Shown here: piece by piece, positions 13,159 to 49,209 of the stretch
Layout of the letters: each line of letters opens with the position of its first letter
How positions within the stretch are numbered: position 1 is the stretch's first letter
Source of the DNA: Synechococcus sp. WH 8016
Lineage (GTDB): Bacteria > Cyanobacteriota > Cyanobacteriia > PCC-6307 > Cyanobiaceae
Length of the DNA: 64,000 nt
NCBI RefSeq assembly: GCF_000230675.1
Contig: NZ_AGIK01000001.1
Span: 868,001 to 932,000 of the forward strand
Reading direction: 5' to 3'
The notes under the pieces: model-generated
What the model saw: only the letters and a program-made list of their open reading frames with translations
What the model was told of the DNA's origin: nothing
Database searches by the model: none
Translations under genes and position numbers: made by a program

Positions 13159-13977
13159 ATGACCAAGCCACAACGCACTGTCTTGATCACTGGGGCTTCC
13201 AGCGGAATTGGCAAAGCAACCGCTCAACGGCTCCTTCTTCAAGGCTGGAAGGTGATCGCTGCGGCACGAAAAACTGAAGCGATGAATGATCTTCGTGAGT
13301 TAGGGGCCGAAGTGCTGACTCTTGACATCACGGACATCCAATCAAGGCAAGCCGTTGTGACGCATATCCATCAACAATTTGGTGCTCTTGATGCCCTTGT
13401 GAACAACGCTGGATTTGGAGATGTTGGTCCCATCGAAACCATGCCAATTCAGACCGCTGAAAACCTGTTTCAGGTCAATGTCTTCGGTCTCATCGGCCTC
13501 ACTCAGTTGGTTTTACCTGAAATGAGAAAGCGTGGAAAAGGCACGGTCATCAATCTTTCCTCGATCGCGGGCCGATTTGTTACCCCTGGAGCCGGGTGGT
13601 ATGGAGCAAGCAAATTTGCTTTAGAGGCGCTCAGCGATGCCTTACGTCTCGAGCTTCACCAATTCGGAATCAACGTCGTCGTCATCGAACCCGGCTTAAT
13701 TGCAACTCGCTTCGAAACTCTCACGAGGAAATCCATGGCCGAAGCCCAAAAAGACCCCGCTTGGGCTCCCATGATGAGGAAAGTGGAAGAAAATTGGCAG
13801 GAGGGGTTCAAAAGGGCATCTCCAGCAGACGTTGTGGCGGCAACCATCCAAAAGGCCTTGGATGCTCGCACTCCAAAAGCGCGATACCTCTGCGGACACC
13901 GAGCCGAGTCTGCAGTCATACAAAGACTGTTGCCCACTAATCTGTGGGACGGCATCGTTCGCTGGCAAATGACGTAG
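13159..13977 (+). CDS. Short-chain dehydrogenase/reductase (SDR)
   Basis: 272 residues with all classical SDR motifs: TGASSGIGKAT (cofactor loop, about 11-21), LVNNAGFGDVG, catalytic Ser in INLSSIAGRF and YGASKFALEAL (Tyr-x3-Lys). The C-terminal part (about 185-270) is the variable substrate region. It would reduce or oxidise a carbonyl/alcohol with NAD(P)H; the substrate is unknown. The start lies just beyond the divergent membrane gene. ocp begins 81 bases downstream. Confidence 0.9.
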   Translation: MTKPQRTVLITGASSGIGKATAQRLLLQGWKVIAAARKTEAMNDLRELGAEVLTLDITDIQSRQAVVTHIHQQFGALDALVNNAGFGDVGPIETMPIQTAENLFQVNVFGLIGLTQLVLPEMRKRGKGTVINLSSIAGRFVTPGAGWYGASKFALEALSDALRLELHQFGINVVVIEPGLIATRFETLTRKSMAEAQKDPAWAPMMRKVEENWQEGFKRASPADVVAATIQKALDARTPKARYLCGHRAESAVIQRLLPTNLWDGIVRWQMT

Positions 13978-28916: not shown

Positions 28917-29918
28917 TTAGGCCACCTGATCAAGAACGAAGCGGTAGCGCACATCACCACGATGCAAGCGCTCAATTGCTTCATTGACTTGATCCAAGGG
29001 CAAATGCTCCACCTGGGGTTTGATGTCGTGCCTCACGCAGAACTCCATCATTTTCCGAAGACTCCCTGGTGAGGACGTGGGACTACCCGTGATCGACCGA
29101 CGGAAGGAGATCAAATCGAAAGCACCCACTTGGATTGGCTGCAAGACGGCTCCAAGCTGATGCAAGCGGCCCCGTGGGGCGAGAGATCCCATCACGGCAG
29201 ACCAGTCGAGCGCTTGATTCACGGTGTTAATGACGAGATCGAAGCGTCCAAGCAATGCGGGGAGCTCTTCCAAAAGCATCACATTGTGAGCCCCAAACCC
29301 CCTGGCCTCATCCGCCTTCGTGCCGTCAGTGGTGAGCGCGGTGACCTCACAGCCCCAGGCTCTAGCGAACTGCAGCGCCAGATGGCCGAGACCACCGATC
29401 CCAACAACCGCCACATGGGCCATCGGCGAGACCTGCTCATCCACAAGCGGTGCGAAAACTGTGATTCCAGCGCAAAACAACGGACCTGCCACCGCAGGAT
29501 CCAACCCTTCGGGAAGAACCACGGTCCAATCCTGGTGGGCTTTCACGTGGCTGGCAAAGCCGCCCTGGCGACCAACAATCGTCGCCTCCAGCGACCCACA
29601 AAGATTGCTGGTTCCCTCCAAACATTGATTACAGCGAAAACAACTGCCACTGATCCAGCCCAAACCACGGATCTGCCCGATCACGGCTGAGTCCACGCCC
29701 GGTCCTACAGAGACGACCCTGCCCACAACTTCATGCCCAGGAACGAGCGGGTACTGGCTGATGCCCCAGCTGTTGTCGATCATCGACAGGTCGCTGTGGC
29801 AAAGACCGCAGTGAAGGACTTCTAAAACTAGTTCGTCCTGACCGGGCTCAAGCAGAACTCGCTTGACCTTTTGGAGAGATGCCGTTGCACTCCCCGCTTC
29901 CCAGACCGAAATGTCCAC
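28917..29918 (-). CDS. Zinc-dependent alcohol dehydrogenase (CAD-like)
   Basis: 333 residues of the MDR family. Catalytic zinc ligands: HCGLCHSDLSM (Cys) and YPLVPGHEVVGRV (His-Glu). The structural zinc loop is SGSCFRCNQCLEGTSNLC. Rossmann motif: VAVVGIGGLGHLALQFARAW. The sequence is of the cinnamyl-alcohol-dehydrogenase/YahK type, which reduces a broad range of aldehydes with NADPH. ATG start. Confidence 0.92.
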   Translation of the reverse strand: MDISVWEAGSATASLQKVKRVLLEPGQDELVLEVLHCGLCHSDLSMIDNSWGISQYPLVPGHEVVGRVVSVGPGVDSAVIGQIRGLGWISGSCFRCNQCLEGTSNLCGSLEATIVGRQGGFASHVKAHQDWTVVLPEGLDPAVAGPLFCAGITVFAPLVDEQVSPMAHVAVVGIGGLGHLALQFARAWGCEVTALTTDGTKADEARGFGAHNVMLLEELPALLGRFDLVINTVNQALDWSAVMGSLAPRGRLHQLGAVLQPIQVGAFDLISFRRSITGSPTSSPGSLRKMMEFCVRHDIKPQVEHLPLDQVNEAIERLHRGDVRYRFVLDQVA

Positions 29919-32795: not shown

Positions 32796-33932
32796 TCAGA
32801 TCCATTGATCAGCCAGATCAACCGCACTTTGAAGAGCCCCTTCAGCCATCCCAAAACCTGGGCCGGCGATCCAATCTCCACAAAAACCAACAGCGCTGGG
32901 TTGACACCATTGAAGGGACGGTGGCAGGGGAGCATCCAAGGGCTGAGACGCTCCCCAGCGCATGACCCCCAAAGAACGGGCCATCGGGAGTGCCTGAGCC
33001 AACTCGGGCCAGGGCAGCAAGAGCTCAGCGAGAGCCTTCCGTTGGCGTGATTCCTGCTCCAACAACAAACGTGGCTGACTGGCTGGCGTGATGGGAGATC
33101 CGTCGTCCAAACCGTGCACGACTAAGCCCAGCCGTCGGTCCTGCTGACGATGGAGAACAATCCGTTCAATCCCAAATTTTTCTTGAGCATCAGATGTCAA
33201 CCAAATCTGCCTAGGAAGCTCTTCAGGAAAGCAATGAAAGTCGAGCATTAAATTCCAGCGCACCGATGCATGCATCTCACGAATTCGCTCAAGTGCAGCA
33301 TCCAAGGTGAGATCCAGATTCAGCGGAACAGATGAGCGCAACGGGACATCGTGCCAACCCAACATCGCCAGGGAACGGGGATGGGCCAAAAGATTGCCCG
33401 TGACCACTAAAGAGCGCGCCCGCAGCTGACCTGAAAAACACCACCAACCGTTCTCTCTGCGCAGGCTGCTGATTCGTTCTCCGAACACCCCTCGCGTGTT
33501 CGCACCTGCGAGCTTCAGCAAAGCCTCTGGCACCGAGGCCATCGTTGGAACACCTCGAAAGCATGGGCCCTGGAGAAGGGGATGATCCGGTGGATCAACA
33601 AGACAACCCGTCTCGTTCAAACCAACAACAAGCCCACAATCGGGCTGGACAATCCCCTGCTCCAGAAGGGGATTCCATAGGTCAGCAAGAGGCCCCTGCG
33701 GTGCTTGGCTAAAGCTGAAACAAGGGGCTCCATGGTCAAGCCGCCATTGCAAATCATCACGTCGGCGCCGCGTCGCCGCCCGGCCACCCGGACCCCGACC
33801 GGCCTCAAACAGCAGAATTGTGCCCTCAAAACCGCGTTGGCGAAGCGAGGCAGCAAACCCAGTGCCGGCAAGACCGGCTCCAATCACAGCAAGATCAACG
33901 TCTGATTGCTGAGAATCACCAAATAAGATCAT
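32796..33932 (-). CDS. Renalase-like FAD/NAD(P)-binding oxidoreductase
   Basis: 378 residues. The N-terminal dinucleotide fold is VDLAVIGAGLAGTGFAASLR (GxGxxG), then LLFEAGRGPGGRAATRR and a family-typical DHGAPCFSFS. The C-terminal FAD contact is VGFCGDWIAGPGFGMAEGAL. The pattern is like renalase/amine-oxidase-like flavoproteins of cyanobacteria. The substrate is unknown. It is divergent from the bestrophin pseudogene, with 29 bases between the starts. Confidence 0.85.
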   Translation of the reverse strand: MILFGDSQQSDVDLAVIGAGLAGTGFAASLRQRGFEGTILLFEAGRGPGGRAATRRRRDDLQWRLDHGAPCFSFSQAPQGPLADLWNPLLEQGIVQPDCGLVVGLNETGCLVDPPDHPLLQGPCFRGVPTMASVPEALLKLAGANTRGVFGERISSLRRENGWWCFSGQLRARSLVVTGNLLAHPRSLAMLGWHDVPLRSSVPLNLDLTLDAALERIREMHASVRWNLMLDFHCFPEELPRQIWLTSDAQEKFGIERIVLHRQQDRRLGLVVHGLDDGSPITPASQPRLLLEQESRQRKALAELLLPWPELAQALPMARSLGVMRWGASQPLDAPLPPSLQWCQPSAVGFCGDWIAGPGFGMAEGALQSAVDLADQWI

Positions 33933-33961: not shown

Positions 33962-34924
33962 ATGTCAAAGCGATTCTTAGGGAACGCCATGTCAATTAAG
34001 TCTGGGCCCTACGGAGATCCACCGCGTACAGCGCGACGGGACTATTTCGTTGTTTTGCTGTTATTGCTGTGGCGTATGCGCTACGACCTGCTGTTATTAG
34101 CGGTTATCGGGGCGCTGATATTAAGCGACACAGTGCCTACAAATTGGCAACAAAGTGGCAGCGTCGTTTCAATTATGGGAATCACGGTTTCCATCTTTAT
34201 TGGTTTTCGAAATACGCAGGCGATTGGCCGCTGGTAGGAAGCTCGGCAACTATGGGGCGCCATTGTTAACCACAGCCGCAATTGGTCGGACATCCTGACA
34301 AGCCTCCTACCAGAGGAACATTTGGTCAGTGCACACGGACGCAACTTAGTGCGTTATCAAGTGGCCATGGTTTGGCAACTGAATTTTCAGTTGAGAAACT
34401 TTTATCATCAAGATTTGAGGCGCTTCCAAGACTACCTCCTGGAAAATCTGGAGATGAAGCCAACTACAACATTAAGGCAATTAGGGCAGGCCAGGGCAGC
34501 AGCAGTTCGCAACCTTTACGAAAGCAAGAAAATTAATGCTCGCGGCAGGGAACAATTAATGAATATCGCCAACGCCACAGTCGATGCAATCGGCGGGCTG
34601 GAAAGGATTAGAAACACCCCATTGCCCGCTAGTTACGACGTCTTTGTTCGCATGCTTAGCTGGGTCTTCGGTTTTCAACTGCTGCTGAATTTCAAGACGG
34701 ATGGGGCATCTTTAGTCGGCAACATCACGGGAGTTGTGCTGTTCCTAGGCTTCTTAATGGCCGAACGGATTGGCGCCTACGTTGAAGGTCCATTTGATGG
34801 AGATGGAAGCACATTTGCACTCCCCCTCAATGCGATCTGCCTCACGATTAGCCGGGACTTACTGGGGAATGAAACCGATTCATGTCTCCACCATTTCTCC
34901 AAAGACCCTGTTCGCTGGACATAA
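33962..34924 (+). pseudogene. Bestrophin-family channel gene interrupted by an in-frame TAG
   Basis: Two collinear parts in the same frame: 33962-34237 (91 residues, ending SIFIGFRNTQAIGRW) and the rest to 34924. Between them is a TAG at 34235-34237. Past the stop the frame continues EARQLWGAIVNHSRNWSDIL, which is exactly the bestrophin/UPF0187 pattern FRNxQAYxRWWEARKLWGxIVN. The TAG stands where a second Trp (TGG) is expected, so one G-to-A change explains it. The remainder shows no other stop or shift and reaches a normal end. Intact bestrophins conduct chloride/bicarbonate across thylakoid or plasma membranes. It could be a recent pseudogene, a sequencing error, or read-through. Confidence 0.85.
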
Positions 34925-34980
34925 AATAGTTAAAACTGAACTCACAAGCCATAATTGGAGAGTGCTGTACAACAGGAAAG

Positions 34981-36360
34981 ATGTCAGAAGCGCAAGGCCT
35001 GGAATCGATAAATCCTGCCACAGGATCAAAAATCGCCACATATCCATTAATGAGACAAGAGGAGATCATCGAAGCGATAGAGAAGGCAGATTCTGGTTTC
35101 CAACAATGGAGAAACTCTGAGTTTTCATTAAGAAAGAAAGCACTCAATCAAGTTTCCCAAGCTCTAGAAGCTAACAAATCAGCCTTGGCAAAAGGCATTA
35201 CTCAAGAAATGGGAAAGCCCATTCAACAATCAGAGGCAGAAGTCGAAAAGTGTGCCTGGGTTTGCAACTATTTTGCGGAGAATGGAGAGAAACTCCTTGA
35301 AAATGAAACGATCGACCTGGGTGAAGGGAATGCAACCGTAACGGCTCAACCCCTTGGAATTCTGTTTGCTGTGATGCCTTGGAATTTCCCGTTATGGCAA
35401 GCATTCAGGGCGATTGCCCCTACCTTAATGGCAGGAAATACCCTGCTTCTGAAAGGTGCATCCAATGTGCCGGGATGTAGCAGTGCCATTCAAAATATCT
35501 TTAACAGCTGCGACATCCCTGAAGGTGTCTTCACAAATATGCCCATGCGATCGGCAGATGCAAAACTTGTTATTGCACATCCAAAAGTACGCGCTGTCAC
35601 CCTTACAGGAAGCGAAGAGGCCGGTCGAGCTGTGGCATCCATTGCAGGCGCCAATTTAAAAAAATGTGTTTTAGAACTTGGAGGACAAGATCCTTACCTG
35701 ATCCTTCACGATGCAGATCTTGATTTAGCGGCTGATCGCTGTGCAGCAAGTCGAATGCTTTGCACCGGACAAGTTTGTATTGCAGCCAAACGCCTTATTG
35801 TGGTCAACGATATCTACGATGAATTCTTTAAACTCTTACAAAAAAAGCTGGATTCTTATGTCATGGGAGATCCCATGAATCGCGCCTTCAATATTGGACC
35901 TTTAGCAAGATTAGATCTACGGCAACAGGTTCATCTTCAAGTCCAAAAAAGTGTTGAACAGGGAGCAACCCTGCGACAAGGAGGGATGATACCAGAACAA
36001 AAAGGCTGGTGGTATCCCATCACGATTCTCGAAGATGTAAAGCCAGGGATGTCCGCATTTGACGACGAAATTTTTGGGCCTGTGCTGAGCCTTGTACGTG
36101 CTGAGAATGACAACCATGCGGTTGAACTTGCCTCAGATACTCGCTTTGGACTGGGAGCAGCCATTTTCTCAGCGAATACCGCCAATGCCAAAAGAATTGC
36201 CGTGAAAGAAATTGAAGCAGGCTGCGTTGCGATCAATGATTTTGTAAGAAGTGATCCACGGGTTCCCTTTGGAGGAATTAAAGATAGTGGCTATGGCAGA
36301 GAGCTGGGGAAGCTTGGCATCCATGAATTCATTAACAGCAAAAGTATTGTGGGGGCTTGA
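34981..36360 (+). CDS. Aldehyde dehydrogenase, succinate-semialdehyde type
   Basis: 459 residues of the ALDH superfamily. Motifs: MPWNFPLWQAFRAIAPTLMA, AVTLTGSEEAGRAVASIAG (cofactor), KKCVLELGGQDPYLIL (general-base Glu), MLCTGQVCIAAKRLIV (catalytic Cys), DEIFGPVLSLV. The order and length fit NAD(P)-dependent succinate-semialdehyde dehydrogenases, which complete the 2-oxoglutarate-to-succinate bypass of cyanobacteria; the specificity is inferred. AGGAAAG lies before the ATG as ribosome-binding site. A terminator follows at 36398-36424. Confidence 0.9.
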   Translation: MSEAQGLESINPATGSKIATYPLMRQEEIIEAIEKADSGFQQWRNSEFSLRKKALNQVSQALEANKSALAKGITQEMGKPIQQSEAEVEKCAWVCNYFAENGEKLLENETIDLGEGNATVTAQPLGILFAVMPWNFPLWQAFRAIAPTLMAGNTLLLKGASNVPGCSSAIQNIFNSCDIPEGVFTNMPMRSADAKLVIAHPKVRAVTLTGSEEAGRAVASIAGANLKKCVLELGGQDPYLILHDADLDLAADRCAASRMLCTGQVCIAAKRLIVVNDIYDEFFKLLQKKLDSYVMGDPMNRAFNIGPLARLDLRQQVHLQVQKSVEQGATLRQGGMIPEQKGWWYPITILEDVKPGMSAFDDEIFGPVLSLVRAENDNHAVELASDTRFGLGAAIFSANTANAKRIAVKEIEAGCVAINDFVRSDPRVPFGGIKDSGYGRELGKLGIHEFINSKSIVGA

Positions 36361-36397
36361 TGAGGATGGGATCAACAGAAAGACTCATCAGCCATTA

Positions 36398-47016: not shown

Positions 47017-49209
47017 ATGTCTGATCTGAGATGCCCCTTTCATGGCCACACAGGAGCTACAACTCCAGCTGGACACACAGGTAATCAACAGTGGTGGCCT
47101 GACCAGATCGATCTCAAGATCCTGCATCAACACCATCCATCTGCGAATCCACTCGGAGAGGACTTCGACTACGCCACCGCGTTTTCAAAATTGGATTTTG
47201 AAGCGCTGAAAGCTGACCTCCACAGCCTGATGAGGGACTCCCAAGAGTGGTGGCCTGCCGACTGGGGGCACTACGGCGCCTTATTCATCCGAATGGCTTG
47301 GCACAGCGCAGGCACCTACCGCATTGGCGACGGCCGTGGCGGTGCCGGCCATGGCAATCAACGCTTTGCACCGCTAAACAGCTGGCCTGATAACACCAAC
47401 CTGGATAAAGCTCGACGTTTGCTCTGGCCGCTCAAACGCAAGTACGGGAACAGCATCTCTTGGGCCGATTTAATCATTCTCGCGGGGACCATCGCTCTTG
47501 AATCGATGGGATTCCGCACCTTTGGTTTTGGAGGGGGTCGCACCGACATTTGGGAACCCGAAGAGGACGTGTTCTGGGGGAAAGAAACACAGTGGCTCGC
47601 CGACGAACGCCACGACGACTCCGGGGCACTCGACCAGCCGCTTGCGGCTGTGGAAATGGGTTTGATCTATGTGAATCCCGAAGGACCACATGGCCATCCC
47701 GATCCCATCGCATCGGGCAAAGAAGTGCGCGACACCTTTTCACGCATGGGGATGAATCCCGAAGAAACCGTGGCGCTCGTCGCTGGCGGACATACCTTCG
47801 GGAAATGCCATGGAGCAGCCTCCGCCGACCATCTGGGCGTCGAACCAGAGGGGAGCGAGCTCGAAGCCCAAGGCCTGGGCTGGAGCAATCGCTTCCAAAC
47901 AGGTAAAGCGGAACACACCATCACCAGCGGAATTGAGGGGGCGTGGAAACCCCATCCCACGCGCTGGGATCAGGGCTATTTCCAAATGATGTTCAGCTAC
48001 GAATGGGAACTCACAAAAAGTCCAGCTGGTGCCTGGCAATGGGTCGCAAAAGACGTCCAACCAGAACACATGATTCCCGATGCACACGTTGCCGGGAAGT
48101 TTTCGGCTCCGATCATGACGACAGCCGATTTGTCCCTACGCCATGACCCGATCATGGAGCCGATTGCTCGGCGCTTCCACCACGATCAGGAAGCCTTTGC
48201 CGATGCGTTTTCCCGAGCCTGGTTCAAGCTGACCCATCGAGACTTGGGTCCGCGTGCGTTGTACTTAGGGCCCGACGTTCCCACCGAGGTCCTGATCTGG
48301 CAAGACCCGATCCCAACAGTGGATGCCCCACTGATCAACGCCACGGAGATCTCTTCACTCAAGCAACAAATCCTTGAGACCAATCTGAGCGTCCAAGAGT
48401 TGGTGGCAACGGCATGGGCCTCTGCCTCCACATTTCGGAGTTCCGATCGACGGGGAGGTGCCAATGGCGGCCGCGTTCGCCTCTCCCCACAAAACAGCTG
48501 GGACGTCAACAACCCAGACACCTTGAAGAGAGTGATCACCCAGCTCGAAAGCCTTCAGGACTCGTTCCATCGTGCATCTTCTGAAGGCAAGCATGTCTCC
48601 ATCGCCGACTTGATCGTGCTTGCTGGGGGCACAGCCATCGAGAAAGCAGCAGCCGATGGGGTGCACCTTGTGACGGTGCCATTCCAACCAGGCCGCAGCG
48701 ATGCAGGTTTAAAAGAGACAGACAGTGCCTCGTTTAATGCTCTGAAACCTCTTGCTGACGGCTTCAGAAATTGGAAACGGGCCGACTTACCCCTGCGCGA
48801 TGAGGAGCTGTTGGTAGACAAAGCCCAACTTCTCTCACTCAGCGCCCCAGAGATGACCGTGCTGGTGGCAGGCCTGCGCGTGCTTGGCGCCAACACAGCC
48901 GGCAACCAGCAAGGCGTCTTCACAGACAGGCCTGGAGTTTTGAGCACAGATTTCTTCACCAATCTGCTCGACATGAGTACGGTTTGGACGCCAACCAATC
49001 ACCAACAAGACAGCTACATCGGTTGTGATCGCAGCACTGGTGAGCAACGCTGGACGGCAAGCCGTGTTGATTTGGTGTTTGGATCGCACAGTCAACTGCG
49101 CGCCATTGCAGAGGTTTACGCCCAAAACGATGGTGAGAAGCGATTTATTGGAGATTTTGTAGCCGCTTGGGTGAAAGTTATGGAGCTCGATCGCTTTGAT
49201 TTGCGCTGA
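47017..49209 (+). CDS. katG: Catalase-peroxidase
   Basis: 730 residues, two haem-peroxidase-like domains. The distal haem motif is [18 protein letters not shown], with Trp and His. The proximal motif is [16 protein letters not shown]. The Tyr of the Met-Tyr-Trp adduct is in [13 protein letters not shown]. The second domain repeats the pattern without haem contact ([20 protein letters not shown]). KatG removes hydrogen peroxide by catalase and peroxidase cycles. It converges on psbA and shares the terminator at 49258-49294. Confidence 0.98.

Follow-up and report, generated by a model that had tools for sequence, protein, structure and literature searches.

In Synechococcus sp. WH 8016, a bestrophin gene is interrupted by a single in-frame amber codon that stands where all close orthologues encode tryptophan. 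The most probable explanation, to which we assign a probability of about 0.7, is a real and very young TGG to TAG nonsense mutation that inactivated this chromosomal gene and whose consequences are tolerated by the organism. The gene is located in a stretch of 64,000 nucleotides of contig NZ_AGIK01000001.1 (hereafter the window), which belongs to a draft assembly of 2.69 Mb in 16 contigs (genome G000).

An amber codon in a conserved bestrophin frame

The reading frame comprises 320 codons and a final TAA, with only one internal stop (Table 1). When it is read with an X at this stop, it matches the profile PF25539 (Bestrophin_2) with 121 bits, well above the curated cut-off of 27, and covers positions 34–286 of the 288 profile positions; an intact orthologue reaches 127 bits. 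Taken alone, the N-terminal piece before the TAG aligns to profile positions 33–79 and remains below the curated cut-off, and the C-terminal piece aligns to positions 81–286, the two being in register on adjoining parts of the profile. These results bear out the original prediction of a bestrophin gene in one frame with the TAG as its sole lesion and an intact remainder behind it, as both halves belong to PF25539 and the sequence downstream of the stop is conserved up to and including the terminal TAA. The predicted frame thus stood, whereas the predicted start probably did not. Relatives differ in the codon at 33962 (AAG in G007, GTG in G024), and because all close relatives except CPC316, which has AAG there, share an ATG at 33989, the true start is probably this latter codon, judging from its conservation; the start described first would lie 27 bases too early. 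The CPC316 sequence (L084) comes from a contig assigned to a MAG of the Gammaproteobacteria, but it is clearly marine Synechococcus and was mis-binned, because it shows 82% DNA identity over 7 kb and the same gene order.

The stop replaces Trp92. All seven close orthologues, including the separately broken copy of genome G013, have Trp at codon 92, and the residue is invariant in an 11-row alignment as well as in a 31-row alignment that extends to other phyla. In the alignment with bestrophins of related Synechococcus the residue is thus present and is the Trp that had been expected, and the change from TGG to TAG needs one base only. Trp92 is not universal, with Val in the bestrophin KpBest of Klebsiella pneumoniae and Leu in a second bestrophin of G013 and G021. 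Among the 31 genomes of the genus, 25 possess a full-length copy, all 25 without an internal stop, and the stop at codon 92 occurs in G000 only. The relatives of the G000 genome that carry a name are marine Synechococcus, and a scan of contigs for records of the same species retrieved intact relatives and no second record of the species. On the sequence comparison, chance is no explanation for a collinear match over 320 codons at the 89–94% protein identity found between the G000 gene and its seven close orthologues.

Table 1. Features at the bestrophin locus (window positions) and the second bestrophin of the same genome.
Feature	Position	Strand	Basis
NAD(P)/FAD-binding oxidoreductase, divergent neighbour, same neighbour in close relatives	32796..33932	-	Profile and locus comparison
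Bestrophin open frame with one internal TAG	33962..34924	+	PF25539, 8.8e-35, read with X at the stop
Likelier start (ATG at codon 10 of the frame as first described)	33989..33991	+	Conserved in close relatives
Pore neck Ile74, Ile78, Phe82 (IIF; KpBest I62, I66, F70)	34181..34207	+	Alignment to KpBest chains
Amber TAG in place of conserved Trp92, within long TM2 helix	34235..34237	+	Ortholog alignments; predicted helix residues 66–115
Intact, conserved remainder of the frame behind the stop (228 codons plus TAA)	34238..34924	+	PF25539, 7.5e-23 alone
Downstream aldehyde dehydrogenase, intact in G000 and missing from G013 and G024	34981..36360	+	Profile and locus comparison
Second bestrophin of G000	L169:3280-4179		

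Several further observations concern the surroundings of the gene. The downstream aldehyde dehydrogenase gene is missing at nearly the same junction (window positions 34952 to 36390) in G013 and G024, which are not sisters, and survives in G020 (L177) as a broken remnant. Elsewhere in the window, an ORF of 272 codons at 13159–13977 has a counterpart with three stops in G013 (dN/dS 0.69) and is a decaying or spurious gene; another ORF of 333 codons at 28917–29918 is broken in G013 by stops and gaps. The gene of 730 codons at 47017–49209 differs from its match in G013 by a dS of 0.77, compared with about 0.08 for the neighbouring genes, an excess that may reflect a match to a second copy or replacement by recombination.

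Predicted channel architecture and position of the stop

The AlphaFold2 model of L083, an intact orthologue, has a pLDDT of 86 and is predicted to have the fold of KpBest (PDB 4WD7/4WD8). All 50 Foldseek matches listed were KpBest or derived from it; the TM-score between KpBest and the model is about 0.7 when normalised to the query and 0.8 when normalised to the target, at 25–28% sequence identity. Alignment to the KpBest chains also yields a hydrophobic neck of three residues with the same Ile-Ile-Phe pattern, an assignment for which we infer a two-residue offset between the KpBest chain and the literature numbering (PMC8496536). The KpBest gene differs in being intact and in its Val at the amber position. 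KpBest is a Na+ channel with an Ile-Ile-Phe neck, while the eukaryotic Cl- bestrophins have Ile-Phe-Phe (PMC8496536). The neck deduced here being of the Na+ channel type, the product of this gene should not be taken to be anion-selective.

The original prediction had attached importance to the loss on the grounds that proteins of the bestrophin type let anions pass through photosynthetic membranes, a statement that stems from plant and algal bestrophins and is not established here. Chlamydomonas BST1-3 and plant VCCN1 resemble the present protein as bestrophin-family membrane proteins of photosynthetic organisms; they are located in the thylakoid and have a proposed role in HCO3-/Cl- transport, but neither location nor role is transferable to this bacterial branch.

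In the predicted model, the amber codon falls after the neck in the long TM2 helix, and termination therefore leaves TM1 and part of TM2. Translation would cover only 91 codons, or 82 when counted from the likely start, and break off within the pore helix; no five-subunit channel would then be formed, and the truncated peptide would presumably be degraded.

Age of the lesion and rival explanations

Selection was analysed by a branch codon model of the Goldman-Yang type (own code, F3x4 frequencies, stops masked, nine sequences). On the G000 tip, omega is ~0 and a value of 1 is rejected (2dlnL 6.4); the background omega is 0.08 and that of the stem shared by G000 and G013 is 0.04. Parsimony places seven synonymous changes, no amino-acid change and one stop on the G000 tip, in addition to which 12 synonymous and one amino-acid differences are not polarisable. 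Apart from the stop, the G000 gene thus shows no clear sign of decay, and the lesion must therefore either be very young, as had been proposed, or an assembly error. A very young pseudogene need not show relaxed selection. On the assumption that the gene evolved neutrally once it was lost, this loss occurred roughly within the last 8–26% of the branch since the split, where the upper values allow the one unpolarised difference on the G000 branch.

G013 is the closest relative, with 94.8% DNA identity over the gene, and its copy is broken elsewhere, by a TAA at codon 158 and a TAG at codon 171, neither of which is found in G000; Trp92 is kept. The same gene was lost there independently by different mutations. 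Its tip has an omega of 0.51–0.62 (p 8e-6 versus one omega), for which a value of 1 is not rejected, and carries five synonymous, 16 amino-acid and two stop changes, so that relaxed selection is detected in G013 and not on the G000 tip. Because of this contrast in tip omega and substitution counts, the gene has been decaying for some time in G013, whereas in G000 the damage is very recent or confined to the assembly.

The latter case, in which the stop is a single-base sequencing or assembly error and the gene is intact, is unlikely, though by no means negligible. The lack of relaxed constraint on the G000 branch fits an intact gene equally well, and an assembly in 16 contigs is a draft. However, bacterial genome assemblies seldom contain substitution errors, and in the 20 kb around the gene no neighbour with a clear orthologue has a comparable internal stop; other stops flagged in this region appear to belong to over-extended starts or spurious frames. 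Moreover, the sister lineage G013 shows that loss of the same gene is tolerated. We therefore presume that the stop is also present in the cells.

Read-through of the UAG by a near-cognate or suppressor tRNA, by which some full-length channel would be made, had been offered as a further possibility. The conserved sequence behind the stop would agree with it, as would the tolerance of the Trp position for Leu (second bestrophin of G013 and G021) and Val (KpBest), but recency of the lesion accounts for this conservation equally well, and machinery for read-through was not identified. All 42 tRNA genes detected and typed by a family search of the genome and fetched stretches have ordinary anticodons, none of them CUA; RF1 is present with a score above its cut-off; and PylS is represented by a sub-cut-off cross-match only, of a kind also seen in most control genomes. 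Furthermore, TAG terminates six of the 43 long ORFs in the window, and no relative examined has a stop at codon 92. We regard read-through as very unlikely, and it is more improbable still that translation passes the amber codon often enough to be useful, with the dose of the channel set by leaky termination and the gene still under selection. Stop-codon reassignment was rejected, RF1 being present, TAG an ordinary stop and nearly all relatives free of internal stops.

The least probable alternative is that the gene had already lost its importance before G000 and G013 diverged and that the stops of the two genomes are late traces of one relaxation: both sisters are broken, but in the branch codon model the stem is strongly constrained and the G000 tip rejects an omega of 1, G013 retains Trp92 and G000 lacks both G013 stops, all of which disfavours a shared ancestral loss.

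Recurrent damage and a second bestrophin in the genus

Across the genus, the bestrophin gene is broken by different lesions in three to five of the 31 genomes. In G009, whose assembly is 99% complete in three contigs, about 100 codons have been deleted in frame, apparently between CTGCAG repeats, and with them TM1, the neck and the RWWEAR motif. G003 has a one-base deletion adjoining a TTTT run, which may be an artefact, as the assembly is possibly that of a single-cell genome. The gene is in fragments in G030, which has a fragmented assembly, and is cut by a contig end in G027.

Between fabI and hisB, both G000 and G013 have a second bestrophin gene, which is intact and 299 codons long. G024 presents the reverse situation, the main gene being intact and the second bestrophin reduced by a large internal deletion to a remnant (L163:3206-3474) that is still flanked by fabI and hisB. 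The two bestrophins thus look partially redundant, and the second gene might compensate for loss of the first in G000. As a general rule, such compensation was rejected: G009 has lost the main gene, and no second bestrophin was seen in its genome; redundancy is therefore not required for the loss. A separate peculiarity of the second locus is the allele of G013 and G021 (L164, L167), in which the conserved Trp is Leu and which is 94% identical between the two but only about 73% to G000. Because fabI and hisB on either side are at least 90% alike in these three genomes despite the divergent bestrophin, this allele is attributed to local replacement.

In the reading that we favour, a real and very young nonsense mutation, the gene would be dispensable in the genus and its loss therefore tolerated: several lineages have it broken, each by another lesion, and G000 keeps a second intact bestrophin. 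The same two observations make the loss less consequential than was originally claimed. An open-access literature search for bestrophin in marine Synechococcus returned no dedicated study, only a review on CO2 concentration and an unrelated paper.

Recently formed single-lesion pseudogenes of bacteria likewise combine one nonsense change, a conserved remaining frame and intact orthologues in related species, and all that sets the present case apart from these ordinary ones is that other members of the genus have independently acquired lesions in this gene. The G000 gene is most likely a real, ordinary recent pseudogene and a small example of repeated gene loss that involves no new mechanism. 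Its import is modest, and the useful part is comparative: the broken copies are natural knock-outs for the role of bacterial bestrophins in marine picocyanobacteria.
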